Shown: one piece after another, positions 3,908-27,192 of the stretch
Numbering within the stretch: position 1 is the first letter of the stretch
How the letters are laid out: each line of letters opens with the position of its first letter
Assembly (NCBI RefSeq): GCF_900187185.1
Contig: NZ_LT906465.1
Location: 1,922,001-1,986,000 of the forward strand
Origin: Chryseobacterium taklimakanense
Lineage (GTDB): Bacteria; Bacteroidota; Bacteroidia; Flavobacteriales; Weeksellaceae
Reading direction: 5' to 3'
DNA: 64,000 nt
The notes under the pieces: model-generated
Databases searched by the model: none
What the model was told of the DNA's origin: nothing
Seen by the model: only the letters and a program-made list of their open reading frames with translations
Position numbers and translations under genes: made by a program

Positions 3908-5494
3908 TTGAAGCATTTAAAAAACATACCCTTTCAGGAAATTGAAAGCATTCCCCAGTTGATCAAAGATTTTCTGAACGGTAAACTTTTGGATTTTAAA
4001 GAAGATTTATTCAGCCCCGAAAATTTTAGACAAAAAATTTCAGGTAAGAAATCCGAGTTCACTGCCCATAAGCGCAACATTCTGTTTGAAGTTCTAAGTG
4101 ACCAGCTTTCTAAGATTGAACTTTCAGAGCATCAGGAAGCCAACCTCAGCGCTCTGCAGAATGACAATACCTTCACGGTGGTCACAGGGCATCAGCTGAA
4201 CCTGTTTACGGGGCCGGCTTTTTTCATTTATAAGATCTTGCAAACCATAAAAACGGCGGAATATTTAACTGAACACTTCCCTGAAAACAATGTTGTCCCG
4301 GTATTTTGGATGGCCACGGAGGATCATGATTTTGAGGAAATCGACCATTTTAAAACAGAAAACAATTATTACGAAATCAAAGGGAAATCCGGAGGTGCAG
4401 TTGGAAGAATTCAAATTGAAGACCAGTATTTCATTCGTGAATTTGAAGAAGAATTCAAAGATTCAGTCTACGGGACAGAACTCATGCGTTGGATCAGGGA
4501 GGCTTACTCGCCCGGCAATACGCTTGCGCAGGCCACCACAATTTTGGTGCACCGGCTGTTTTCACAGTACGGTTTGCTGATCATTGACGGGGATGACCCC
4601 AAGCTGAAAAATGAAATGAAAGAGATCTTCAAGGCGGAACTTATCGATCAAAAACTTTTTCAGTGCTCCCAGGATAAAGTAAATTTCCTCACTGAGCATT
4701 ACGGTAAAGTTCAGGTTAATCCCCGCGAAATCAACCTTTTTTACCTCTCGGAAACCCGCGACCGAATTGAATATGCCAACGGAAAATACAATGTCGTGGA
4801 TAAGGAAATTTCCTTTACAGGAGGCGAGATTTTGCACGAGCTCGAAACTTATCCGGAGAGATTTAGCCCTAATGCTTTGATGCGCCCGGTTTATCAGGAA
4901 AAAGTGCTTCCAAATCTTGTTTACATCGGTGGTAATGCCGAAATCATGTACTGGATGGAAATCAAGGATTATTTCCGCGAAATCGACTTGCAGTTCCCGA
5001 TTCTTATCCCAAGAAATTCAATGCTGTTCCTGAAGGAAAAGACCCTTAAAAAAGCTGAAAAACTCGACCTTAAAACTGAAGATTTCTTCAGAAATTTCAC
5101 TCAGGTCATTAACCAAATTATTCTTAAAAATTCACGGTTAACTTCACTTCTTGATGCAAAAGAAGATGCTGTAAAATCTGTTTTCTCAGAAATTAAAGAA
5201 CAGGCTGCGGAAACTGATGTTACTTTCAAAAATCTTGTTGCAGCCGAAGAAAAACGTCAGCTTAAGTCTTATGAAAGGATGAGAAAGCGGCTTTTGAGGG
5301 CCGAGAAAATCAAACAGAGCGAAAAACTTTCCCGTCTCGAAAAACTTTTCCTTGAGGTGCATCCTGCAAAAAACTGGCAGGAACGGGTGCTGAATTTCAG
5401 CGTGTTTTATGCTGATGAAGGCCGGGATTGGCTTCAAAATTGTTACAGCACAATGAATGTAGAAAAATCGGAATTATTTATTATTCAGATTTGA
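3908..5494 (+). CDS. bshC: Putative bacillithiol synthase BshC (cysteine-adding enzyme)
   Basis: 528 aa, beginning with TTG; the resulting start KHLKNIPFQEIESIPQLIKDF matches the usual BshC N-terminus, so I keep this start. Signature blocks are VVTGHQLNLFTGPAFFIYKI (about residues 91-110) and VPVFWMATEDHDFEEIDHF (about 130-148). A C-terminal coiled region (KSYERMRKRLLRAEKIK) is also typical. Family knowledge: BshC adds cysteine to glucosamine-malate to complete bacillithiol, the low-molecular-weight thiol of Bacillota and many Bacteroidota. It acts in the cytosol. bshA and bshB are not in this window. The following LysM gene begins 38 bp after the stop. Confidence 0.95.
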   Translation: MKHLKNIPFQEIESIPQLIKDFLNGKLLDFKEDLFSPENFRQKISGKKSEFTAHKRNILFEVLSDQLSKIELSEHQEANLSALQNDNTFTVVTGHQLNLFTGPAFFIYKILQTIKTAEYLTEHFPENNVVPVFWMATEDHDFEEIDHFKTENNYYEIKGKSGGAVGRIQIEDQYFIREFEEEFKDSVYGTELMRWIREAYSPGNTLAQATTILVHRLFSQYGLLIIDGDDPKLKNEMKEIFKAELIDQKLFQCSQDKVNFLTEHYGKVQVNPREINLFYLSETRDRIEYANGKYNVVDKEISFTGGEILHELETYPERFSPNALMRPVYQEKVLPNLVYIGGNAEIMYWMEIKDYFREIDLQFPILIPRNSMLFLKEKTLKKAEKLDLKTEDFFRNFTQVINQIILKNSRLTSLLDAKEDAVKSVFSEIKEQAAETDVTFKNLVAAEEKRQLKSYERMRKRLLRAEKIKQSEKLSRLEKLFLEVHPAKNWQERVLNFSVFYADEGRDWLQNCYSTMNVEKSELFIIQI

Positions 5495-5532: not shown

Positions 5533-7443
5533 ATGGTAAAAAAGATCTTATTGTTATCGGCGTTTGCGATGTTTTCGGCGGTTAGTGCCCAGAAAAAGCA
5601 TACTGTAGCAAAGGGCGACAATCCATATAATATTGCCAAGAGATACGGAATTACACTGGATGAACTTTTGAAGCTGAATCCCGGTGTGAAAGACGGTAAA
5701 GTGAACATTGGCGATGTACTGGTAGTGGATAAAAAATCTGCAGCCACAGCAAGTGAGAGAAAAACTGCCGTGCCTTCGACACCGAAAAACAGCGGTGAAA
5801 TGGGATACATCACGCTACAGCCGAAACAAACGGTTTACGGCATTACCAAGCAGTACCATATAACCGAAACCGAACTGAGAGCTATAAATCCTAACCTGGA
5901 TTCCAATATGAAAATTGGGGATAAGGTGGCCCTGCCATTGGAGAAGATCAGAAAATACGGTGCCGGACAAACCCAGGAAGCTGCTAAAGCCGCAGAAACT
6001 GCTACTGCGAACGGGACCGTTGTAAAACAAAATGCTGATGCAGATTCGTATGTCGTTCAGCCTAAAGACAACTACTACAGGATTACAAAAAACTTCAATA
6101 TCACTCAGGACCAGCTTTTTGCAATGAATCCGGGTCTTGAACAGAAGGGTTTGCAGCCTGGCGATGTGCTGAAAGTAAAAGGAAGCGCAGCGAAAGCTGC
6201 AGAAACGATACCAGAGCGGGCTTCCCAAAGCCCATCACCTTCGGAGACGGTTACGGCTGTTGCAGATGATTATGTGACTTATACCGTAAGAGATGGTGAT
6301 ACCGTTTTCGGAATCTTGAACAGATTTGGAGTTTCTCTGGATGAACTGCTTTCTCTGAACCCTGAATTATCAAACGGTCTGAAAGCGGGAATGGTCTTAA
6401 AAATCAAGAAACTTGATGCCCAGTACGTCAAAAAATCCGGCGATGCGCTGAACGTGGTGATCATGTTACCTTTCGGGTTTGATACGAATGACAGCAAATA
6501 CAGAAGCATTTCAACAGATTTCCTTACCGGTGCGAAACTTGCGATCGAAAGGAATGCGAAAAGCGGTCAGAAGCTCGACGTGAAAGTTGTGGATGCGGGT
6601 AATGAAGCTTCTTTCAAAAACAGCCTTACACAGATCAATAAGAACAATACAGATCTAATTATCGGACCTTTTTTCAAATCGTCAGTGGTTGAAGTTTTGA
6701 ATTACGTTCAGAAAGAGAAAATTCCGGTTGTTGCACCTTTTGCAAATTCGGAAGATCTCTATGGTTACGACAACCTGATCATCGTGGAAACTACCGGTGA
6801 TTCTTACGCAAAAAGAATCGTGGAAGAGGTGGGTAAAGTGTATTCTGACCAGAAAATCTATATCGTTTCAGGTTCAGATAAAGCCGATGCCAACCTTGTA
6901 AAATCCGGTTTGGAGAAATCCTTTAAAAATCCAAATATCACGATGGTGAATTCACCACTCGATATACAGCTGGATAAAAACATGATGACTGGCCAGTCTG
7001 CGCCGGTGATTGCAATCCTTGCTTCGAGCAATGAGGAGCTTGGCAATGCCTTTACCAGCAGGATTATCCAGATGAACAGTGAGGTTCCGCAAACCAAATC
7101 TTTCAGTCTTGCTTACAGCTCCAGCTTTGAGAAAAAGGAAAAAGAGATTGGGCATTTGGTTTATCTGATGGACCGAAAAATCAACACAGAAGGCAGTTTT
7201 GAGAAAGAAATTCTAGGTGATTATAAAGAAAAGTACTGCAAAACGCCTTCGAAATATGCTGTGATCGGTTTCGATGTGGTAAATGATATTTTAACCCGTG
7301 AAAACAAGAAAGGAGAAGTTTTCAAACAGATCGGAAAGGTACAGACACAACTGGCAACAAAATTTGAATACGTAAGGGCCAAAAAGAATGGCGCATATAT
7401 CAACACCGGGTACAGAGTAGTGAGGCTGGAGCCTCAGAACTAA
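5533..7443 (+). CDS. Secreted protein with four LysM domains and a type-1 periplasmic-binding-like domain
   Basis: 636 aa from ATG 5533. The open frame extends upstream to 5428 inside bshC, but a signal peptide (MVKKILLLSAFAMFSAVSA) begins exactly at 5533 and a -7 box precedes it. Four LysM repeats at about residues 22-66, 91-136, 172-216 and 248-292 each show the TVxxGDxxxxIxxRxxxxxxxLxxLNP pattern. The C-terminal half (from about 307, VVIMLPFGF) looks like an amino-acid-binding/LivJ-like fold, with DLIIGPFFKSSVVEVLNYV and IPVVAPFANS motifs. It probably binds peptidoglycan in the periplasm. The domain pairing recalls proteins that couple wall binding with synthase or hydrolase regulation, but no function is proven. 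Confidence 0.85.
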   Translation: MVKKILLLSAFAMFSAVSAQKKHTVAKGDNPYNIAKRYGITLDELLKLNPGVKDGKVNIGDVLVVDKKSAATASERKTAVPSTPKNSGEMGYITLQPKQTVYGITKQYHITETELRAINPNLDSNMKIGDKVALPLEKIRKYGAGQTQEAAKAAETATANGTVVKQNADADSYVVQPKDNYYRITKNFNITQDQLFAMNPGLEQKGLQPGDVLKVKGSAAKAAETIPERASQSPSPSETVTAVADDYVTYTVRDGDTVFGILNRFGVSLDELLSLNPELSNGLKAGMVLKIKKLDAQYVKKSGDALNVVIMLPFGFDTNDSKYRSISTDFLTGAKLAIERNAKSGQKLDVKVVDAGNEASFKNSLTQINKNNTDLIIGPFFKSSVVEVLNYVQKEKIPVVAPFANSEDLYGYDNLIIVETTGDSYAKRIVEEVGKVYSDQKIYIVSGSDKADANLVKSGLEKSFKNPNITMVNSPLDIQLDKNMMTGQSAPVIAILASSNEELGNAFTSRIIQMNSEVPQTKSFSLAYSSSFEKKEKEIGHLVYLMDRKINTEGSFEKEILGDYKEKYCKTPSKYAVIGFDVVNDILTRENKKGEVFKQIGKVQTQLATKFEYVRAKKNGAYINTGYRVVRLEPQN

Positions 7444-11558: not shown

Positions 11559-11573
11559 GTAGCCCGTAGGGGA
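11559..11573. repeat. Left attachment repeat (attL)
   Basis: GTAGCCCGTAGGGGA, identical to the 3' end of tRNA-Glu at 19675-19689. Flanking T-runs extend the similarity to about 23 bp with one mismatch (T at 11558 versus G at 19674). To its left is native sequence (old tRNA terminator, aroQ), to its right the element. Confidence 0.9.
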
Positions 11574-11685
11574 CTAATACAAACGAATTCAATATAATTG
11601 TACTGCAATCTTAATTAAGCTGTTAGAAGTACTTAACGATGATATCTTTTTTCAGCAGTTTAAAAACTCTTTCAGAATTTGTATT

Positions 11686-11706
11686 AAATAATACAGAAAT
11701 AATACA
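11686..11706 (+). repeat. Pair of 11-bp-spaced direct repeats near attL (possible integrase arm sites)
   Basis: AAATAATACA occurs at 11686-11695 and again at 11697-11706, exactly 11 bp apart. The same pair with the same spacing and orientation occurs near the other end (19595-19615). A related TAATACAAA lies at the core edge (11575-11583). Position and one-turn spacing fit integrase arm-type sites or Xis sites. The pair ends 9 bp before the integrase -7 box, so binding there could also repress int. Confidence 0.55.
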
Positions 11707-11715
11707 AATATTATT

Positions 11716-11723
11716 TATCTTTG
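11716..11723 (+). promoter_or_regulatory. Putative -7 element (TATCTTTG) for the integrase gene
   Basis: TANNTTTG match 19 bp before the integrase ATG (11743). The repeats at 11686-11706 overlap the region where -33 would fall. Confidence 0.55.
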
Positions 11724-11742
11724 AAGTGTAAAAAGATAGATA

Positions 11743-13119
11743 ATGGCTTCAGTTAATTTCTTACTGCGTTCTGCAGTTAAAAAAAATGATCCTTTCACTG
11801 CAAGATTACAATTCAGTAATCCTTCAAAAATTACAGATTCCAATAAGTTTGGTCTTGACTTCGTAGAAGTGAAAACAAGAATATTCGTTTTTAATCCGGA
11901 AGAGGTTAAGGAAATGCCTTTAGTAGATGGCCAAAGATTTTGGAAGGAATTTAAGAAATACAAAGGTTCTGATATCAATATTAAGAATCGTATTGAAAGA
12001 ATAAATTCAGAGCAGAATAAATTCAGATCTTTTATACTTGACAGATTTGAAGCTGCATATCCTGAAGGTTGTGATTCATTACCAAGTAAGGAATGGCTTT
12101 CTTCAGTAGCTAAAGAATATTATGATGATATTATCAGAGCTGAAGCCAGGAAGAAGAACCTGGAGAAACCAAACGAACTTATATGGCACTTCGACAACTA
12201 TATCAAGGTGAAAGGTTTAGAGTTGAAGCCAAGAACTATCTTGAAGCTTCAGGATACTAAAAAAATAGTAGCAGGCTTTGAGGAATTTCAATCTTCAATA
12301 AAAGGATATTCTTTCCAGGTATTAATTCCTGATGTAGATGAACTATTGAAATATGATTTAGTTTCCTATCTGCAGAATAATATGCATTATTCAAAAAATA
12401 CCATTGCCAAAACAATTAAGATCATTAGAACTATCTGCAATTATTCCAAAAGATATGGTATTGAGTTAAGCCCAATGTATGAGGAATTCAGAATGGCTTA
12501 TGATGATAAGGATGTAGTTTATCTTTCATTTGAAGAACTTCAGACAATTAAGAATGCTGATCTTCCGGATGAACTTGATAATGCTCGGAAATGGCTTTAT
12601 ATCAGCAGTTTTTTAGGCCAAAGGATTTCTGATTTTATGCGCTTTGAAAAAACTATGATCCGTAGAGATGGTACTGCTTACTTTATTGATTTTGTTCAGG
12701 CAAAAACTAATAAAAAGATGGCTTTGCTCCTTCACCCGGAAGTAGTTAAAATTCTTAAAGAAAATGATATGAATTTTCCTGCAGCTATAGATGAACCTGC
12801 TTATAATGATCAGATAAGAAAAGTTTGTGAGCTTTCCGGATTAACAGAGAAAGTAAAAGGTTCAATCCTTACTGAAATTGATAAAGGAGTTTGGAGAAAT
12901 GTAGAAGGAGTTTATCCAAAATATAAACTGATCAGCAGCCATATCGGAAGAAAATCATATTGCACCAATTTTTATGGTAAAATTCCTACTGCTTTAATAC
13001 TTGAAGTTTCAGGACATTCTGAAGAAAGAACTTTGCTGGAGTATATCGGTAAGAAGGATGCTTCGAGATCTGAAATGATTAAAAACTATTATCAGAATAT
13101 TGATATTACAAAAGATTAA
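11743..13119 (+). CDS. Tyrosine recombinase (site-specific integrase) of the tRNA-Glu element
   Basis: 458 aa. The N-terminal half has an arm-binding-like segment and a SAM-like core-binding domain (about 140-255). The catalytic domain shows Arg294 in SSFLGQRISDFMRFE, a beta-hairpin Lys in VQAKTNKKMALLLHP, His400/Arg403 in HIGRKSYCTNFY, His425 in SGHSEERT and the nucleophile Tyr434 in LLEYIG, so the full R-K-HxxR-H-Y set is present. Its location 170 bp from attL, facing away from the end, fits an element-borne integrase acting on the tRNA-Glu 3' end. It should catalyse both insertion and, with an excisionase, excision. The reading frame is intact. Confidence 0.95.
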   Translation: MASVNFLLRSAVKKNDPFTARLQFSNPSKITDSNKFGLDFVEVKTRIFVFNPEEVKEMPLVDGQRFWKEFKKYKGSDINIKNRIERINSEQNKFRSFILDRFEAAYPEGCDSLPSKEWLSSVAKEYYDDIIRAEARKKNLEKPNELIWHFDNYIKVKGLELKPRTILKLQDTKKIVAGFEEFQSSIKGYSFQVLIPDVDELLKYDLVSYLQNNMHYSKNTIAKTIKIIRTICNYSKRYGIELSPMYEEFRMAYDDKDVVYLSFEELQTIKNADLPDELDNARKWLYISSFLGQRISDFMRFEKTMIRRDGTAYFIDFVQAKTNKKMALLLHPEVVKILKENDMNFPAAIDEPAYNDQIRKVCELSGLTEKVKGSILTEIDKGVWRNVEGVYPKYKLISSHIGRKSYCTNFYGKIPTALILEVSGHSEERTLLEYIGKKDASRSEMIKNYYQNIDITKD

Positions 13120-13133
13120 AATACATACTATAG

Positions 13134-13250
13134 GCGTATTTTGCGTATTATCCGTATTTTGACATATAAACAAATGAAAATCAAGCAATTATAAATCAAA
13201 AAACACGCGTATTTTGCCCGTATTTTAAGTGTATTTTGTCCGTATTTCGT
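13134..13250 (+). repeat. Left iteron array: 3 copies at 9-bp period, AT-rich spacer, 4 copies at 11-bp period
   Basis: The motif CGTATTTTG or close variants begins at 13135, 13144 and 13153 (9-bp steps), then at 13208, 13219, 13230 and 13241 (11-bp steps, about one helical turn). Between the groups are about 45 bp of very AT-rich DNA (13162-13206). The array starts 15 bp after the integrase stop and ends 27 bp before the next ATG. A homologous array in opposite orientation lies at 19286-19403. The layout of iterons plus AT-rich DNA is that of a replication origin or a multi-site operator. Confidence 0.85.
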
Positions 13251-13277
13251 AGAAATTAACTTTTAAATTTAAATATT

Positions 13278-13673
13278 ATGTACACACAAGAAACAAGATT
13301 AAACAGATTTGGAACTAATCAGATTATGTTCAGAATTGAATCAGAACATATGAGAAGTACAGAACCAGGTGCAGGAATTATTTCCGGTGATGAATTGAAC
13401 TGCTATTTCTATAATAATATCCAAATTGAAGATGGTAAGTGTTATCTGTTAGAATGGATGGAAGCAGAAACAAAAGAAAAACATTTTTTTGTTAGAGCTG
13501 CAAAATTTGAAGGGGAGTACATAAAGTTTTATTGTGTGAATCCTGAATTTTCAGAAGGGGATTTTTTTTGCAAGCCTGAAGAACTAAAAGATACTTTCAC
13601 CGGTATTGCAGTTGTAGAATCTTATTCCAGGTGGATGATGCGGAAAGAAGACATGGATGAATTATGCAGTTAA
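13278..13673 (+). CDS. S24/LexA-like beta-domain protein lacking the catalytic serine (tentative)
   Basis: 131 aa. I do not recognise it with certainty. The order of elements, RIESEHMR, then GAGIISGDELNCYF, then IEDGKCYLLEW, then HFFVRAAKFEGEYIKFYCVNPEF, then FTGIAVVESYSRW, parallels the S24 peptidase domain (S-M ... I-x-x-GD ... DG-x-x-Y-L-V ... V-K-R ... L-x-x-x-NP ... I-x-G-V-V). The catalytic Ser position appears to be His (EHM) and the Lys position Arg (FVRAA), so cleavage activity is doubtful. No HTH is visible. It sits 24 bp before the next gene and right after the left iteron array. Such domains occur in phage regulators, so a regulatory or anti-repressor-binding role is possible. Confidence 0.5.
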   Translation: MYTQETRLNRFGTNQIMFRIESEHMRSTEPGAGIISGDELNCYFYNNIQIEDGKCYLLEWMEAETKEKHFFVRAAKFEGEYIKFYCVNPEFSEGDFFCKPEELKDTFTGIAVVESYSRWMMRKEDMDELCS

Positions 13674-13696
13674 ATTAAGAAGTAAAAGATAGTGGT

Positions 13697-14548
13697 ATGA
13701 GTGAAAAGCAAACAAATGATGAAGATCTTTGGATTGAATATTTAAAAGTTTTAGAGGAAATTCAAAGTAAGGTTCACTTTCATTATGAAGTTATAGGATG
13801 CGTGGAATTGTTCCTTATTCAGGATACGCCAGCAAACTTCGATTTGAGTTATTTTAGAGAGGAGTTTTGCGGATCCTATTGGAAAATAAATGGAATAACC
13901 ATATTTAATCCTTTGATTTACCTCAATATCAAAACTGCTGATGAAGAACAATTTTCAAAATTCAGGCAGGCTTATTTTGATGGTTTCAAGTACTTTGCTG
14001 ATAATTTTAGAGCGATTGATCCAAGCGAAAACCATATCAGAACCTTACATGATCATTTTATAGATAGGTGGCGACATTACTATGGTTTTGCAAGTACACT
14101 TGTACATTATGAAAATATTACTGATTCAGGTTATTACTGCGGAATTTTAGCAGCATATGCGGATTATGAAACTAATAATATATTAAGATTCAGACAATTA
14201 TCTGATCATATTTTTGCTGCAGCTGATGTAGAAGGTGTGAACCAAAGAAAGAAGAGATTAGTCAAAAGTATAAAAGAATACTTTGGTAAGGATGTAAGCA
14301 TGGAGGGCAGAGAAAGAATAATCAGGGAGCTTAAGAAAAGAATAAAGGCTGGAGATTACAAAAACGCCGGTAAAGATATTTCTGAACTTGCAAGCAAGAG
14401 AACTTTAGTGGATCCATTTCGACTAAAACCATTCTTGCGCCTGATTACGGAAGATATGAATGAAAATGAATTTAATTCGTGCTATGTGCAAATAAGTGAA
14501 AATTATCGTGATGAGCAGAAGTTGGCTAAAACACAGAAAAACAAATAA
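13697..14548 (+). CDS. Hypothetical protein of the integrated element
   Basis: 283 aa, cytosolic-looking, no signal peptide or membrane segment. The N-terminal half is rich in aromatic residues (WIEYLKVLEEI, YFREEFCGSYWKINGI, HFIDRWRHYYGFASTLVHYENI). The C-terminal third is charged and helical (GRERIIRELKKRIKAGDYKNAGKDISELASKR). It is probably co-transcribed with the 131-aa gene (23-bp gap). I cannot assign a family. The position between integrase and HTH gene suggests an accessory or cargo role. Confidence 0.75.
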   Translation: MSEKQTNDEDLWIEYLKVLEEIQSKVHFHYEVIGCVELFLIQDTPANFDLSYFREEFCGSYWKINGITIFNPLIYLNIKTADEEQFSKFRQAYFDGFKYFADNFRAIDPSENHIRTLHDHFIDRWRHYYGFASTLVHYENITDSGYYCGILAAYADYETNNILRFRQLSDHIFAAADVEGVNQRKKRLVKSIKEYFGKDVSMEGRERIIRELKKRIKAGDYKNAGKDISELASKRTLVDPFRLKPFLRLITEDMNENEFNSCYVQISENYRDEQKLAKTQKNK

Positions 14549-14617
14549 TTACACGATTTATTTTTATTTAAATTTTATTAATAAAAAACAATAAATACAG
14601 TCAGCATATGACGTGAT

Positions 14618-14625
14618 TATCTTTG
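14618..14625 (+). promoter_or_regulatory. Putative -7 element (TATCTTTG) for the replication-gene operon
   Basis: TANNTTTG match 153 bp before the HTH gene at 14771. It is identical in sequence to the box before the integrase. Transcription from here would give a leader of about 140 nt that contains the nested inverted repeats at 14642-14743. Confidence 0.5.
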
Positions 14626-14641
14626 AAATGTGAAAAGAAAA

Positions 14642-14743
14642 ACCACCGGCCGAAACCGATGGATAAGTATCAAACGAAGGATTAAAGATTGCACCCCTTA
14701 ATCTTCTTCAAAGATACAAATTCCAAAAGTTTCCAAAGGTGGT
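14642..14743 (+). ncRNA. Possible structured leader RNA (three nested inverted repeats)
   Basis: The untranslated region has ACCACC (14642-14647) pairing with GGTGGT (14738-14743), GTATC (14667-14671) with GATAC (14713-14717), and GAAG+GATTAA (14676-14685) with TTAATC+TT+CTTC (14698-14709), all properly nested around a 12-nt loop. The fold would span 102 nt just after the -7 box and end 27 nt before the HTH start codon. This is seen only by eye; conservation or covariation would be needed to prove an RNA element. Confidence 0.4.
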
Positions 14744-14770
14744 AAGGTTAAACTATTAAACTTATTACTG

Positions 14771-14995
14771 ATGGAAAATCCATTTGCTGCAATTGAGAAG
14801 CAGCTCGCAACAATCAATTCAAAACTTGATCAGGTACTGCAGGAAGGTAAAGATGCGCAGCCGGAACTATTAACCAGGAAGGAATACCTTAAGAAAAGAG
14901 GCATATCTGATACTTCGCTATGGCGTGAAGAAAAGGATGGTCTTATTGCACCGGTGTTTATTGGAAGAAAAAAGTACTATAAATTTCCAAACTAA
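14771..14995 (+). CDS. Small helix-turn-helix protein (AlpA/excisionase-like)
   Basis: 74 aa. An N-terminal amphipathic helix of about 30 residues (FAAIEKQLATINSKLDQVL) precedes a winged HTH-like segment: LLTRKEYLKKRGISDTSLWREEKDG, then an APVFIGRKKYYKF wing. This is the usual architecture of small Bacteroidota mobile-element HTH proteins of the AlpA/MerR-like type that act as excisionases or replication/transcription regulators. It is the first gene of the replication operon, 5 bp before DUF3987. It is the best candidate in the element for an excisionase, and also for the protein binding the iterons. Confidence 0.75.
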   Translation: MENPFAAIEKQLATINSKLDQVLQEGKDAQPELLTRKEYLKKRGISDTSLWREEKDGLIAPVFIGRKKYYKFPN

Positions 14996-15000
14996 CAGCC

Positions 15001-16353
15001 ATGAATGCGGTAAGAATGAATGTAGATCAGTTGAAGGAATCAATCAAAGAATCTTTCAAAGATGATCAGCAGAATATTCCGCTGGAAGTATTTCCTGAAG
15101 TGGTACGTGAAATTATTTCTGAAAAAACAAAGCAGAGCTTGGCGGTGGAATTCTTATTTGCTTCAGCACTTGCAGCGGTTTCTATTGCTATTGGGAATTC
15201 TTTCAAAGTAGAATTAATTCCGGGAATGTTTACAAATGCTTCGCTGTATGTATCGGTAGTTGCTGAAAGTGGCAGCGGAAAAACCGAAGGCATAGAATCT
15301 TTTCTGAAGCCTTTGCTGCAGATTGAATCAGAAAACAATAAGAGATTTTTAGAGGAGGAAAAGCAATACCAAAAGAACAAAGCGCTTCCATTAGATCAGC
15401 AGCAGGATATTCCAAAGCCCTACAGAAAGCAGCGTATAATGCAGGATTTGACTGCAGAAGCATTTGCTGATAGGATGGAAAAGAATCCAGGTGGATTAGG
15501 GGGATATGTAGATGAAATAAAAGGCTTTGTGACTTCACAAGGACAGTACAAAGGTGGAAAAGGTAATGATAGGCAGTTTTGGCTTTCAGTGTGGAATGGA
15601 AAGAAAGCAATGAAAGACAGAGTTAATCAGTCTATTTTTATTGAAAATGTTTTCTTCACGCTTATTGGTGGAATTCAGAAGGAAGAAGCCAGCGAACTAT
15701 TTATGAAAATGTTTTCTGATGGATTTGCACCGAGATTCTTATTTGTTGTGGCTGACAATCTTACACCATTAAAATGGAACTTGGACCCGGTAGATGCAAG
15801 TATGGATGCTACATGGGATAAGATAATCAGATCAATAATTGAAATGCAGCCGGAAAACAATGAATCCAGGCTCGTAAAATTTGAAAGAGATGCCGCTGAA
15901 TTACTTGTTAATTGGAGAAATAACCAAAGCCGGGCAAATAACTTCGCAATGCGCTTATTTGATGCAAAACTGCAGATATATGCAATCAGGTTTTCTTTGG
16001 TTCTGCATATCCTGAAAAGGGCAGTAGAAGGTACTTTTTATGATGATGATCTTATTGAATTAGAAACTGCTGAAAATGCGCTTAAGTTGGTGAAATACTT
16101 CCGGGATAATGCTGAAAAGATGACCAAAGCCATGAAGCTGGATGATCCTTTAGAATCTTTGGATGCCAATAAACTGACTTTGTACGATATGCTTCCGGAT
16201 CAGTTTACTACCGGTGAAGGAGAGCAGATTGCGAAGAATAACAAATTGTTAGGGCATACGGCCTTTAATACTTTCCTGAAAAACAAAAGGCTTTTCAAGA
16301 AGTTAGGGCAGGGTAATTACGAAAAACTTATTGCAGATGGAAACGATAATTAA
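15001..16353 (+). CDS. DUF3987-family P-loop protein (replication helicase/ATPase candidate)
   Basis: 450 aa. The N-terminal LEVFPEVVREII and the following SLAVEFLFASALAAVSIAIGNS are typical of DUF3987. A Walker A-like loop AESGSGKTEG lies at about residues 88-97 and a Walker B-like GGYVDEIKG at about 170-178, with later FTLIGGIQKEE and GFAPRFLFV motifs shared with AAA-type replicative helicases. DUF3987 proteins sit beside primase-like genes in phages, satellites and integrative elements and are taken to drive replication. The stop overlaps the start of the primase-like gene by 17 bp, implying translational coupling. Confidence 0.85.
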   Translation: MNAVRMNVDQLKESIKESFKDDQQNIPLEVFPEVVREIISEKTKQSLAVEFLFASALAAVSIAIGNSFKVELIPGMFTNASLYVSVVAESGSGKTEGIESFLKPLLQIESENNKRFLEEEKQYQKNKALPLDQQQDIPKPYRKQRIMQDLTAEAFADRMEKNPGGLGGYVDEIKGFVTSQGQYKGGKGNDRQFWLSVWNGKKAMKDRVNQSIFIENVFFTLIGGIQKEEASELFMKMFSDGFAPRFLFVVADNLTPLKWNLDPVDASMDATWDKIIRSIIEMQPENNESRLVKFERDAAELLVNWRNNQSRANNFAMRLFDAKLQIYAIRFSLVLHILKRAVEGTFYDDDLIELETAENALKLVKYFRDNAEKMTKAMKLDDPLESLDANKLTLYDMLPDQFTTGEGEQIAKNNKLLGHTAFNTFLKNKRLFKKLGQGNYEKLIADGNDN

Positions 16354-17539
16354 CTACAGATTCAAGCTGGATAGATCTTCCAAAAAGTATATCTGCCCAC
16401 AATGCGGTAAAAAGGAACTTGTCAAGTATAAGGATGCTGCAGGAAATTATCAAGGGGATGAATTCGGCCGATGCGACAGAGCTGACAAATGCGGTTATCT
16501 GCGTTATCCTGATACTGTTTCTGAAAGTACTTCCGATTATGTGGCACCAGTGAGAAAGCCACAAGTTTACTTTCCTAAAGAATACCTGCAAAAAACCAGG
16601 AAGAACTTTGATCAGAATGTATTTCTGCAGAACATGGAAAAGGCTGGTATTCCTTCAGAGAAAATCAAGAAAGTAGAAGATTATCAGGTGGGAACAATTA
16701 CCAAAGGTAAGTATGCCGGTGGTATCTGCTTTCCTTACATTGATAAGCATAATAGAGTGCATTCTGTTCAAGTGAAAGTCTTTAATTCTGAAAATAAAAC
16801 TATTGACCAAAATTGGCTGCATTCTATTCTCTATTATCATTTTAAAGCTTCAGGAAATATTCCGCAATGGCTTACAGATTACCATAATAACGAGAAGAAA
16901 ACAAACTGCTTTTTTGGTGAGCATTTACTCGAAGTATATCCTTCAAAGGAAATAATTATTGCAGAAAGTCCAAAGAATGCCATTTTAGGCAGTTTCATTC
17001 TGCCGGAATACTTGTGGATGGCTTCAGGTTCTTTAAGTACTTTAAGCGTAAACAAACTGCGTAAACTGAAGGGAAGAAAAATACTTCTGATTCCTGATAC
17101 TTCACCGGAAAGCGTAGCCTTTGATCAGTGGAAACTTATTTGTGATGAAGCAGTTGAAGCAGGGATAAAAGTGCAAATGTGCAGGTTTATCGAAGACATG
17201 GCTACAGAAAATCAGAAAGCTGCCGGATATGATATTGCTGATTATGTGATGGATTTACTGAAGGAAGATCCGAAATTATTTAAGGCTGCTTCAAAAGAGA
17301 TATCTGCACCGGTTCCGGCCAGGAAGGAATATAATTCTGATAATCTAAAAGCATTTGCCGGTGAGATTCTCGAAGAGTGCGATTCCTTACCAGCTGAAGT
17401 ATTACTGAACAAAATTAGAGATTCAAAACATTTTGCTGGCGAAAATCCTATTGATGTAGTTTCCCAAATGCGCTTAAAAAACATTATAGACTGCACCAGC
17501 TTTAACACTTATTTTTTATTCAATTCAACACCATTCTAA
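16337..17539 (+). CDS. DUF6371-family protein with zinc ribbon and Toprim-like region (primase candidate)
   Basis: 400 aa from the ATG at 16337; another in-frame ATG lies 6 bp upstream. The N-terminus has a zinc-finger pattern: YICPQCGKKE, then GRCDRADKCGYLRYP. The middle contains IIIAESPKNAILGSFI (acidic Toprim-like start) and KILLIPDTSPES (DxD-like), as in primases of mobile elements. It is coupled to the DUF3987 gene by a 17-bp overlap. Inference: together they form the element's replication module. The C-terminus (IIDCTSFNTYFLFNSTPF) is consistent with the family. Confidence 0.8.
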   Translation: METIINYRFKLDRSSKKYICPQCGKKELVKYKDAAGNYQGDEFGRCDRADKCGYLRYPDTVSESTSDYVAPVRKPQVYFPKEYLQKTRKNFDQNVFLQNMEKAGIPSEKIKKVEDYQVGTITKGKYAGGICFPYIDKHNRVHSVQVKVFNSENKTIDQNWLHSILYYHFKASGNIPQWLTDYHNNEKKTNCFFGEHLLEVYPSKEIIIAESPKNAILGSFILPEYLWMASGSLSTLSVNKLRKLKGRKILLIPDTSPESVAFDQWKLICDEAVEAGIKVQMCRFIEDMATENQKAAGYDIADYVMDLLKEDPKLFKAASKEISAPVPARKEYNSDNLKAFAGEILEECDSLPAEVLLNKIRDSKHFAGENPIDVVSQMRLKNIIDCTSFNTYFLFNSTPF

Positions 17540-17547
17540 AAACACAA

Positions 17548-17835
17548 ATGATGATATACAAAAACAATTCTCGCAGCTATTGGACAATTCAAATTGATAA
17601 TTATACTTGGCTGCTATGCTCACCGGGAATTATCGTAGAAGCAAATAAAGATCAAAGGGATGCATTTATCAGGAAATACTATTACGTTAAAATGCAGCAT
17701 TCAATTATGAAGGATCCGGAAGTTTACAAGGCAGCAAAGCAGAGATATTTGGAGAGTTTAGCAAAGTGGAGGTTCAATAGGCAGAAGCCTTTCTTTATTA
17801 CTTATGATGAACCCGATAAACAAACGGAAAAATAA
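17548..17835 (+). CDS. Hypothetical small protein in the element operon
   Basis: 95 aa, basic and rich in Tyr/Trp/Lys (SYWTIQIDNYTWLLCSPGIIVEA, FIRKYYYVKMQHSIM). No domain recognised. It starts 8 bp after the primase-like gene and ends 8 bp before the next, so it belongs to the same operon. Confidence 0.65.
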   Translation: MMIYKNNSRSYWTIQIDNYTWLLCSPGIIVEANKDQRDAFIRKYYYVKMQHSIMKDPEVYKAAKQRYLESLAKWRFNRQKPFFITYDEPDKQTEK

Positions 17836-17843
17836 CGGAATCT

Positions 17844-18074
17844 ATGGAAACAAGAAAAGAAAAACTTCAAGAAGTAATTAATGAAATTAATACTGCTTTT
17901 GACAGTAAAGAATTTTTGTCAAAATTATCTGATGCAGCAAAATTAGAAATATTTGAATTATCAATAATTGAGGGCGGTTTGGTTAATCTTTCCGAATCTA
18001 CAAAAAAAGAACTTCAAAAAATACAAAATAATGGAAACCAGGAAACAGAAATTACAGCAGATAATCGGCAGTAA
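17844..18074 (+). CDS. Hypothetical small protein, overlaps the next gene
   Basis: 76 aa, acidic and helical (FDSKEFLSKLSDAAKLEIFEL). Its first residues METRKEKLQEVI nearly repeat in the next gene (METRKQKLQQII), which begins inside its 3' end in another frame. No function can be given. The last 44 bp overlap the next CDS. Confidence 0.55.
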   Translation: METRKEKLQEVINEINTAFDSKEFLSKLSDAAKLEIFELSIIEGGLVNLSESTKKELQKIQNNGNQETEITADNRQ

Positions 18075-18258
18075 AGATGAATACTTCTTTATGTACGCTG
18101 ATGATCGAATGATGTTCTTCAGGAACAGAATAGAAATTCCCGAAGTAGATTACCGGCAGGAAGTCAGATCCGGAACCAAAGTAGAAATGCCTTTGTTCTT
18201 TGATCAGGAAGTTAAAAAGCAGTTTAACCTAAAAACCTTTGAAGATGAGCAGGAATAA
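18031..18258 (+). CDS. Hypothetical small protein with N-terminus like its neighbour's
   Basis: 75 aa from ATG 18031. The frame extends back to 17968, but the METRKQKLQ start mirrors the METRKEKLQ start of the gene it overlaps, which argues for this start. The middle (YFFMYADDRMMFFRNRIEIPEVDY) looks like two beta-strands. Its stop overlaps the start of the DUF5681-like gene by 14 bp. Confidence 0.6.
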   Translation: METRKQKLQQIIGSKDEYFFMYADDRMMFFRNRIEIPEVDYRQEVRSGTKVEMPLFFDQEVKKQFNLKTFEDEQE

Positions 18259-18556
18259 GGATGGCACCTTCGCACCTGGGAATCCGGGAGGAGGCAGGCC
18301 AAAAGGCAGTAAGAACAAGCAAACAGAAAATATCAGGCAATTCTTTATTGATTTCGTAGATAGGAACAAGGAAGAGCTGCAGAATGATTTCGAGATATTA
18401 GAACCAAAGGAAAGGTTCAAGTACATTTTTGATATGGCTAAATTCTTTCTGCCGACACTCAAAGCAGTGGAGTTTGGAAACATCCTGGATGAACTTACAG
18501 AGGATGATTTTGAAAAATTATTAAATCAAATTAAAGAACAATACAATTTAAATTAA
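18245..18556 (+). CDS. DUF5681-like protein (possible small terminase subunit)
   Basis: 103 aa from ATG 18245; a TTG 6 bp upstream is also possible. It begins with a DGTFAPGNPGGGRPKGSKNK motif, the hallmark of DUF5681, a domain found on phage small-terminase-like proteins. It continues with a helical segment ending EPKERFKYIFDMAKFFLPTLKAVEF, which also fits that family. In phages such proteins recognise DNA for packaging; in SaPI-like satellites a small terminase redirects packaging to the satellite genome. With no large terminase or capsid gene here, that satellite use is the attractive reading, but DUF5681 also occurs outside packaging loci. Confidence 0.65.
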   Translation: MSRNKDGTFAPGNPGGGRPKGSKNKQTENIRQFFIDFVDRNKEELQNDFEILEPKERFKYIFDMAKFFLPTLKAVEFGNILDELTEDDFEKLLNQIKEQYNLN

Positions 18557-18566
18557 AAGTACAATT

Positions 18567-19202
18567 ATGAAAAAATTCACTATTCAAGAAGAGTTACCAA
18601 AAAAAGGGAAATTAGAACCTATCCACATTGACGAGATGCGTCTAAATTGGGAGAAGGAAAAGCTGCAGCGAGCAGAGGAAAGCCTGAACAAGTTTGTGCA
18701 AGTGGTGCAATCTGTTTTAGGTGATCTTTCAGCAGCCAAATTGAAAAGATTACATTTAGAAAGTAATGAAGTGGTGCAGGAAGAACTTGCCAGCAGATTT
18801 CAGTTTCCAAATGCTTCTGATCAGTTTAACCTGGATGCATTAGGTATTAACGTGGAACCTATTTACGAAATGAGAAAAGAGTTTGCACACACCTGGAGCA
18901 GTTATTCATTTCAGTACAAAGATGGAAAATTTATTGCTGATGAAGATCAGGCAGTATTCCAGCAGTTTTACACCTATGTAGATACACCGGAGAAAAAGAA
19001 GTTTATTTCACTATTAGAGCAGCAGGTGGAGCTTTACAATGAATTCAAGGCTGCTGGTTTAATACGTAGCTATACACATCTTCGTGAAGTCTTTTATCCC
19101 AATATGTTCACCATTGATATTTATGGGAATATGAGTGTAAAGACAGACAGATTACCATCTTTGTTAAGTTATGTAGGAAGATATATCCAAATCAGCGTTT
19201 GA
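18567..19202 (+). CDS. Hypothetical protein, last gene of the element operon
   Basis: 211 aa, soluble. A charged N-terminal helix (LNWEKEKLQRAEESLNKFVQVVQSVLGDL) is followed by a mixed region with FAHTWSSYSFQYKDGKFIADEDQAV and a C-terminus with REVFYPNMFTIDIYGNMSVKTDRLPSLL. I do not recognise a family. It follows the DUF5681-like gene by 10 bp and is followed by a strong hairpin, so it ends the operon that began near 14.6 kb. Confidence 0.7.
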   Translation: MKKFTIQEELPKKGKLEPIHIDEMRLNWEKEKLQRAEESLNKFVQVVQSVLGDLSAAKLKRLHLESNEVVQEELASRFQFPNASDQFNLDALGINVEPIYEMRKEFAHTWSSYSFQYKDGKFIADEDQAVFQQFYTYVDTPEKKKFISLLEQQVELYNEFKAAGLIRSYTHLREVFYPNMFTIDIYGNMSVKTDRLPSLLSYVGRYIQISV

Positions 19203-19225
19203 TTGTACGCTTCATATTTTGGTGG

Positions 19226-19256
19226 CCGCTGGGAAATATCCTGGCGGTTTTTTTTA
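19226..19256 (+). terminator. Terminator of the element operon
   Basis: Hairpin 19226-19247 (CCGC...GCGG outer stem extended through G-U pairs, about 9 bp) followed by a run of eight or nine T. It starts 24 bp after the last stop codon. The 470 bp from here to the tRNA hold only this hairpin, the right iteron array, the right arm-like repeats and a replacement tRNA terminator. Confidence 0.8.
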
Positions 19257-19285
19257 TAGTTGGCCAGCACATTTTTATGCCAGCT

Positions 19286-19403
19286 TTATGAAATACGCTG
19301 AAAATACACCTAAAATACACCCAAAATACGCTATATTTCAAATTTGTAAAGATATGATTATCAGTTATATAAAGGTTAAATACGCAAAATACGTAAAATA
19401 CAC
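19286..19403 (-). repeat. Right iteron array: inverted counterpart of the left array
   Basis: Read on the plus strand, (C)AAAATAC(G/A) units have their central T at 19294, 19305, 19316 and 19327 (11-bp steps) and then at 19381, 19390 and 19399 (9-bp steps). Read on the minus strand this is 3 x 9 bp, an AT-rich spacer of about 45 bp, then 4 x 11 bp, the same order as at 13134-13250. The variant copies also match in order: the third 11-bp unit is TGTATTTT and the fourth CGTATTTC in both arrays. The two arrays are thus diverged inverted copies about 6.1 kb apart. Confidence 0.85.
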
Positions 19404-19594
19404 CTATATAAAGTATTTGAGAAATAAAAAATCCACCTGGAAACCAAGTGGAAATTTGTAAAAAGATAATGGTATTTCTGTGGGGGAACTACCGCAGCAA
19501 ATATAAGAATATTTCAAATAGAAAAGTTTAATTAAATGTTTGTTTAAATTTTTTGCTTTTAAGGAAATATTGAATTTTTAGTACTAAAATATTG

Positions 19595-19615
19595 AAATAA
19601 TACAAAAATAATACA
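19595..19615 (+). repeat. Pair of 11-bp-spaced direct repeats near attR (possible integrase arm sites)
   Basis: AAATAATACA at 19595-19604 and 19606-19615, identical in sequence, spacing and orientation to the pair at 11686-11706. It lies about 60 bp inside the right attachment repeat. Confidence 0.55.
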
Positions 19616-19672: not shown

Positions 19673-19747
19673 TGGTAGCCCGTAGGGGAATCGAACCCCT
19701 CTTGCAAGAATGAAAATCTTGAGTCCTAACCGATAGACGAACGGGCC
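19673..19747 (-). tRNA. tRNA-Glu (anticodon TTC), integration target
   Basis: A full cloverleaf is readable on the minus strand. The acceptor arms are GGCCCGT/ACGGGCT, the D arm GTCT...GGAC, the anticodon arm CAAGA-TTTTCAT-TCTTG (anticodon TTC) and the T arm AGGGG-TTCGATT-CCCCT. The tRNA body is 19676-19747 and a CCA is encoded at 19675-19673. The second tRNA-Glu in this window (22093-22164) and the attL remnant both lack an encoded CCA, so the element seems to have brought in the last bases. It follows rpsT by 10 bp and is probably co-transcribed with it. Confidence 0.97.
19675..19689. repeat. Right attachment repeat (attR), inside the tRNA-Glu 3' end
   Basis: GTAGCCCGTAGGGGA identical to 11559-11573. 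It covers the acceptor 3' strand and part of the T arm. Beyond it the tRNA gene continues only on this side. Confidence 0.9.
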
Positions 19748-22053: not shown

Positions 22054-22079
22054 AATAAAAAAACCGTTTGGTTTAAACG
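22054..22079 (-). terminator. Possible terminator of the second tRNA-Glu
   Basis: On the minus strand CGTTT/AAACG hairpin (22079-22065) followed by a run of seven T after GG, 14 bp after the tRNA 3' end. The stem is short (5 bp), so confidence is moderate. Confidence 0.5.
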
Positions 22080-22092
22080 AGTTTGTGAGTTG

Positions 22093-22164
22093 TAGCCTAT
22101 AGGGGAATCGAACCCCTGTTGCAAGAATGAAAATCTTGAGTCCTTACCACTAGACGAATAGGCC
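22093..22164 (-). tRNA. tRNA-Glu (anticodon TTC), second copy
   Basis: Cloverleaf on the minus strand: acceptor GGCCTAT/ATAGGCT, anticodon arm CAAGA-TTTTCAT-TCTTG (TTC), T arm AGGGG-TTCGATT-CCCCT. No CCA is encoded (the gene ends ...GGCTACA). Differences from the first copy in the acceptor stem are compensatory. It is 2.4 kb from the first tRNA-Glu, and the AbiE remnant lies between them. Confidence 0.96.
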
Positions 22165-27149: not shown

Positions 27150-27192
27150 ACACAAAAAAGCCGTTTTCACAGTTGTGAGACGGCTTCTTTAC
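27150..27192. terminator. Bidirectional terminator between convergent genes
   Basis: Hairpin AGCCGT(T)TTCAC-AGTT-GTGAGACGGCT (27160-27186). It is followed by T-rich DNA on the plus strand and by CTTTTTTGTGTTTTTTC on the minus strand. It serves the membrane-protein gene and the Deg protease gene. Confidence 0.8.

Follow-up and report, generated by a model that had tools for sequence, protein, structure and literature searches.

The tRNA-Glu element in the 64-kb stretch of DNA analysed here (the whole stretch is called the window) possesses two homologous arrays of short repeats, or iterons, in inverted orientation, and four other complete elements keep matched inverted pairs of arrays near both of their ends. 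We think that these arrays are probably (with a probability of about 0.68) the binding sites for the DUF3987 helicase-initiator of the element, and that they would together form a two-part origin of the excised circle. This reading was drawn from the comparison of sequences. Below, W denotes the window's tRNA-Glu element, and coordinates without a locus prefix are positions in the window.

Genes and attachment sites of W

W is about 8.1 kb long and is integrated at a tRNA-Glu(ttc) gene (19673-19747, minus strand). The attL core (11560-11573) is a copy of the 3' end of tRNA-Glu, TAGCCCGTAGGGGA, and forms a direct repeat with the attR core at 19676-19689. A second tRNA-Glu(ttc) gene is located at 22092-22164, 2.4 kb past the element.

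All of the following genes are on the plus strand. The tyrosine integrase of 458 aa (11743-13119) matched Phage_int_SAM_5 (E=4e-4, below the gathering score) and the phrog_1 integrase (E=1.5e-13). In front of it, positions 11717-11724 (TTATCTTTG), read by eye, fit the -7 box of Bacteroidota, of which the consensus is TAnnTTTG. A 74-aa HTH protein (14771-14995) weakly resembled excisionase/MerR-like proteins (phrog_4745 DNA binding, E=0.009; phrog_66 excisionase, E=0.04). The DUF3987 helicase-like protein (15001-16353; PF13148, E=1e-45; phrog_2373 DNA helicase, E=3e-38) has a P-loop, and its gene overlaps by 17 nt with that of the zinc-ribbon and DUF6371 protein (16337-17539; PF19898, E=1e-37; PF21957, E=4e-17). 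A weak small-terminase-like match was seen at 18245-18556 (phrog_8771, function unknown, E=1e-5; DUF5681, E=0.05). The 131-aa protein, which had been described as S24-like, showed no notable S24 or other match in Pfam, PHROG or NCBIfam.

Structure and significance of the two arrays

Each array of W consists of seven units, that is, three units at 9 bp, an AT-rich spacer of about 46 bp, and four units at 11 bp. In the left array (13135-13250, plus strand), the 9-bp units start at 13135 (CGTATTTT), 13144 (CGTATTAT) and 13153 (CGTATTTT), and the 11-bp units at 13208 (CGTATTTT), 13219 (CGTATTTT), 13230 (TGTATTTT) and 13241 (CGTATTTC), giving gaps of 9, 9, 55, 11, 11 and 11. The right array (19290-19402, minus strand) has the same plan, with 9-bp units at 19402 (TGTATTTT), 19393 (CGTATTTT) and 19384 (CGTATTTA), 11-bp units at 19330 (CGTATTTT), 19319 (TGTATTTT), 19308 (TGTATTTT) and 19297 (CGTATTTC), and gaps of 9, 9, 54, 11, 11 and 11. 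These unit positions on both strands confirm the inverted arrangement and the order of 9-bp and 11-bp periods given in the original prediction. It had also been stated there that the variant third and fourth units match in order, and this holds for the third and fourth 11-bp units. The second 11-bp unit has C on the left and T on the right; in addition, the second unit of the left array (CGTATTAT) and the third of the right array (CGTATTTA) have to be listed as variants.

The global alignment of the left array with the right array gave a score of 36, compared with a mean of -10.6 (sd 4.8, maximum 6) for 1000 dinucleotide shuffles. Units of the form [CT]GTATTT[TC] occurred six times in each array and at most twice in 2000 shuffles. 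That is, shuffled sequences never reached the alignment score or the unit counts, and the arrays are far above the chance level of dinucleotide shuffles. The comparison with relatives described below supports the view that the arrays are diverged inverted copies of one structure.

We also searched 323 genomes of the family with the 11-bp pattern GTATTTTNNNYGTATTTTNNNYGTATTT, allowing one mismatch. The window's genome gave four matches, namely both arrays at two consecutive registers each, and among the other genomes a single one-mismatch match was found in one genome; the reversed control of the pattern gave three matches. The matches of a related pattern in the window's own genome were confined to the two W arrays. 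Two features of the spacer count against an origin. Its AT fraction is 0.80 in an element that is AT-rich overall (GC 0.28-0.40), and no DnaA box was noticed in it.

Matched inverted arrays in related elements

The four other complete elements, here called G285, G270, G169 and G122, come like W from genomes of one family (n=5). Each of the five has its own iteron, and the iteron co-varies at the two ends within the element: G285 carries CGTATAAT, G270 CGTATAA, G169 TTGGCATTT plus TTGACATTT, and G122 CGCGGAA. A search at the level of the order found no further close integrase.

The integrases of G285 and G270 are 67% and 62% identical to that of the window, respectively, and the att core TAGCCCGTAGGGGA is present at both ends of these two elements. 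In G285 (attL L040:4749, attR L060:2356), the left array lies after int at L040:6312 and the right array at L060:2085 (minus strand). In G270 (attL about L041:4097, attR about 17680), the left array lies before int at 4323 and the right array at 17443 (minus strand). G285 and G270 each encode one very large protein (L040:12161-16138 and L041:11005-14757) with tape-measure matches, namely TMP_3 in G285 (E=2e-32) and phrog_9959 in both. We noticed neither a capsid nor a portal gene among their partly annotated genes, and W has no such very large gene.

In G169 (contig C29), the two ends share the att core CCCGATAGGA, and four of the arrays form two inverted pairs, one nested within the other. 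The outer pair consists of TTGGCATTT units (A at 5476, plus strand; A' at 22079, minus strand; 79% identity) and the inner pair of TTGACATTT-like units (B at 5627, plus strand; B' at about 21905, minus strand). Since B is equally close to B' (64%) and A' (64%), the pairing of B rests on order and motif. A third array, C, with GGAATTTTG-like units and a CTTTATCCATA spacer, follows int at about 5773 of L098 reversed; no partner of C was detected, which counts against paired origins. In G122, the CGCGGAA array is located after int at 4369, its inverted partner at 27150, and the att sequence TCCCTCCAACTCCAC at 2850 and 27262.

A scan with fixed geometry gave scores of 27-36 for the six arrays of W, G285 and G270, with a spacer distance d of 54 or 55, compared with a mean of 18.1 and a maximum of 23.0 of 30 for block shuffles. 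With a threshold of 26, only these six arrays were found among the loci scanned. In these three elements the iterons were kept, and the spacers were rich in AT and poorly conserved. The two arrays of G285 have identical 11-bp halves from GGCGTATAATGGG to GCGTATTTAGA.

The left array and the right end of the same element, read in inverted orientation, had 23 8-mers in common in W, 63 in G285, 50 in G270, 64 in G169 and 18 in G122, against interior maxima of 7, 7, 9, 22 and 8, respectively. The right-end region was picked after the arrays had been seen, so that chance was measured here by the interior control and not by a blind search. The comparison among elements also bears out two further points of the original prediction: the arrays separate the integrase and attP on one side from the replication genes on the other, and each array is likely to be an origin or a nucleoprotein site.

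A proposed two-part origin and a possible division of labour between its arrays

The proposed mechanism is as follows. The DUF3987 replicative helicase would act as the initiator and bind both arrays, and one helicase ring would sit at each array (three units, an AT-rich spacer, and three or four units). In combination, the two inverted arrays would constitute a two-part origin of the excised circle, at which the DUF6371 zinc-ribbon protein, which we propose to be a primase, would act beside the helicase. Integration would split the parts of the origin toward opposite ends of the element, and excision would bring them within 0.5-1.9 kb of each other across attP (about 1.85 kb in W and 0.46 kb in G270). 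No solved relative was found by sequence, which counts against this mechanism. The conserved C-terminal segment of the W protein reads like a winged helix, a putative fold; single-sequence structure predictions of the window's DUF3987 protein and of its C-terminus gave a confidence too low for a fold search.

Within the origin reading, the origin proper may be confined to one array, with the other serving as a helper required in cis, as with ori and crr of satellite phage P4. The location of one P4 locus 194 bp from attP resembles that of the right array of W, which is about 270 bp from attR. The crr and ori layouts of P4 differ from each other, however, whereas the arrays of W, G285 and G270 have a near-identical geometry at both ends and therefore show no visible specialisation. 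We regard such a division of labour as possible, if on the doubtful side. A stricter form of the two-part origin, in which each end array seats one ring, neither array alone is bidirectional, integration splits the origin and only the excised circle fires, seems to us somewhat less probable still, and we offer it tentatively.

In G169 the iteron goes with the helicase

If the arrays were instead accessory sites that bind the 74-aa HTH protein, as an Xis-like factor, or Int, their function would be to shape the two att complexes. The arrays are indeed found close to the att sites of both ends, the match of the HTH protein to excisionase is weak but in line with this, and in G270 the distance of both arrays from the cores is about 215-240 bp. 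However, about 1.5 kb, with int in between, separates the left array from the core in W, G285, G169 and G122. Moreover, both ends of W have separate pairs of arm-like TAATACA sites, one at 11680-11706 (TAATACA at 11689 and 11700, inverted TGTATTA at 11680) and the other at 19598-19615 (plus strand; two copies at 19598 and 19609, 11 bp apart). Five of the seven plus-strand copies of TAATACA in the 64 kb are near the element ends, and the pairs are kept in G270 and G169 and partly in G285. We consider these putative sites to be better candidates for the arm sites of Int than the arrays, which are separate from them.

The comparison with G169 bears on the binding protein. The integrase and HTH protein of G169 are 56% and 58% identical to those of the window, yet its iteron is different. 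Its initiator is a BT4734-like/PriCT_1/DUF3987 fusion, and DUF6371 was not found in the stretch searched. The DUF3987 domain of G169 is 43% identical to that of G321 (locus L053) and 31% identical to that of the window, and G169 and L053 have TGGCA iterons and a CTTTATYCATA spacer in common. Because the integrase and HTH protein match those of the window and the helicase and iteron match those of L053, the iteron and spacer seem to go with the DUF3987 helicase, and placement with the integrase type, in this one case, which is the single dissociation on which the choice between helicase and HTH protein rests. The HTH protein is accordingly disfavoured as the array binder. Placement is not strictly tied to the integrase, since in G239, of which the Int is 59% identical to that of the window, the iterons are located at DUF6371. 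Within an iteron class the C-terminus of DUF3987 is conserved, and from one class to another it is different, but the degree of relatedness among the proteins could by itself give such a pattern. Taken comprehensively, accessory sites for excision or integration are an unlikely explanation of the arrays.

We consider it very unlikely that the arrays are paired operators for a repressor of int and the cargo genes. Arrays of short repeats are bound by regulators in many phages, and the left array is located between int and the next gene in W or before int in G270. However, the position of the array relative to promoters differs between W and G270, and the right array of W lies between convergent units, bracketed by terminator-like hairpins that point into it from both sides (19224-19249, plus strand; 19432-19452, minus strand), a flanking minus-strand hairpin being present also in G285 and G270. 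Paired operators, which had been suggested originally, are for this reason disfavoured.

An inversion of the cargo, also suggested originally, or a functionless remnant of an ancestral inverted duplication, agrees with the long inverted pairs of 63-79% identity, but is most improbable because, among the elements compared, the replication genes keep the same direction with respect to int, and also in view of the pairs with different motifs that were kept or re-made and of the iterons being kept in W, G285 and G270 where the spacers were not, as expected from selection on binding sites.

Placement of arrays in distant relatives

Among 35 DUF6371 loci, many had clusters of 6-mer iterons on both strands upstream of DUF6371, above the level of shuffles. 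In several distant relatives bearing DUF3987, the DUF3987 and DUF6371 genes are separated by about 210-220 nt and the clusters are located there, and L053 has two arrays facing each other. W, G285, G270 and G122 combine an overlap of the two genes with arrays near the element ends. This rule has an exception: in G182 (L119) the two genes touch, from which terminal arrays were predicted, but a relaxed scan detected no array, which counts against the origin reading. The array detectors were tuned as the motifs emerged, and the negative results for distant elements are therefore weak. The values of d across the arrays were 32, 42-43 and 54-55, which is suggestive of helical phasing of the spacers.

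When viral contigs were scanned with alignments of DUF3987, relatives were few or absent. CGTAT arrays from IMG/VR were rejected as relatives; the fetched loci encode none of the window's proteins, and most of the arrays looked like simple or coding repeats. L089/L092 (IMG/VR 3300023445_000001) and L096 have inverted CGTATAT arrays about 25 kb apart, and the fetched stretches match none of the W proteins.

Comparison with known systems

Excised IMEs have never been studied for replication, according to one review (PMC5704250), and DUF6371 appeared in a single paper of the open-licence literature searched. The arrays offer candidate replication origins for the Bacteroidota satellites and mobilizable elements with DUF3987 and DUF6371, of which the replication has been little studied. 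Matched inverted arrays near both ends are also a layout in which the integration state and the integrity of the origin could be coupled.

Certain circular elements of Bacteroidota, which we take to be Tn4555-like from their gene content and cfxA, resemble W in having int, HTH, AAA ATPase and DUF6371 genes, but no DUF3987 or terminal arrays were noted in them. Their TGTCCC iteron clusters are upstream of DUF6371 (L123, CP103138; L128, NZ_CP032820) and, in L128, inside the annotated 3' end of the ATPase gene.

SaPI Rep and SCCmec Cch2 use their C-terminal domain to bind short iterons that lie downstream of the helicase gene, SaPI Rep apparently as two hexamers (PMC7581432). Several distant DUF3987 relatives likewise have an array downstream of the helicase gene, and in several the iterons are inverted and lie between the genes of the helicase and the proposed primase, which is the location of the SaPI origin. 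W differs in having no origin directly downstream of its helicase gene, where the next gene overlaps, and W-like arrays are near the element ends.

The nearest known layout is that of P4 (NC_001609), in which a single iteron, TGTTCACC, is repeated at two cis loci remote from each other, with a spacing of 9 in crr and of 10 and 11 in ori. The crr locus is close to attP, which has Int arm repeats of its own, and ori is about 4.7 kb away. W shares with P4 the two remote loci with the same iteron in each, the closeness of one locus to attP, and the proposed primase and helicase functions encoded by the element. On the other hand, crr is made up of two direct repeats of 120 bp whereas W has single inverted arrays of about 115 bp; the ori of P4 is interior whereas the two loci of W, which are inverted copies of a single array, are both placed toward the att ends; and the initiator of W is split into DUF3987 and DUF6371. 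No homology between DUF3987 and P4 alpha was found by hhalign profile comparison (probability 6.6, P-loop region only). Integrase arm-type sites are a role that the W iterons do not match, the TAATACA pairs near the cores being the putative sites of this kind. We therefore think that the W arrays may be a variant of already known origin-type arrangements, from which, in P4 and SaPI, they differ by their matched, inverted and terminal placement.
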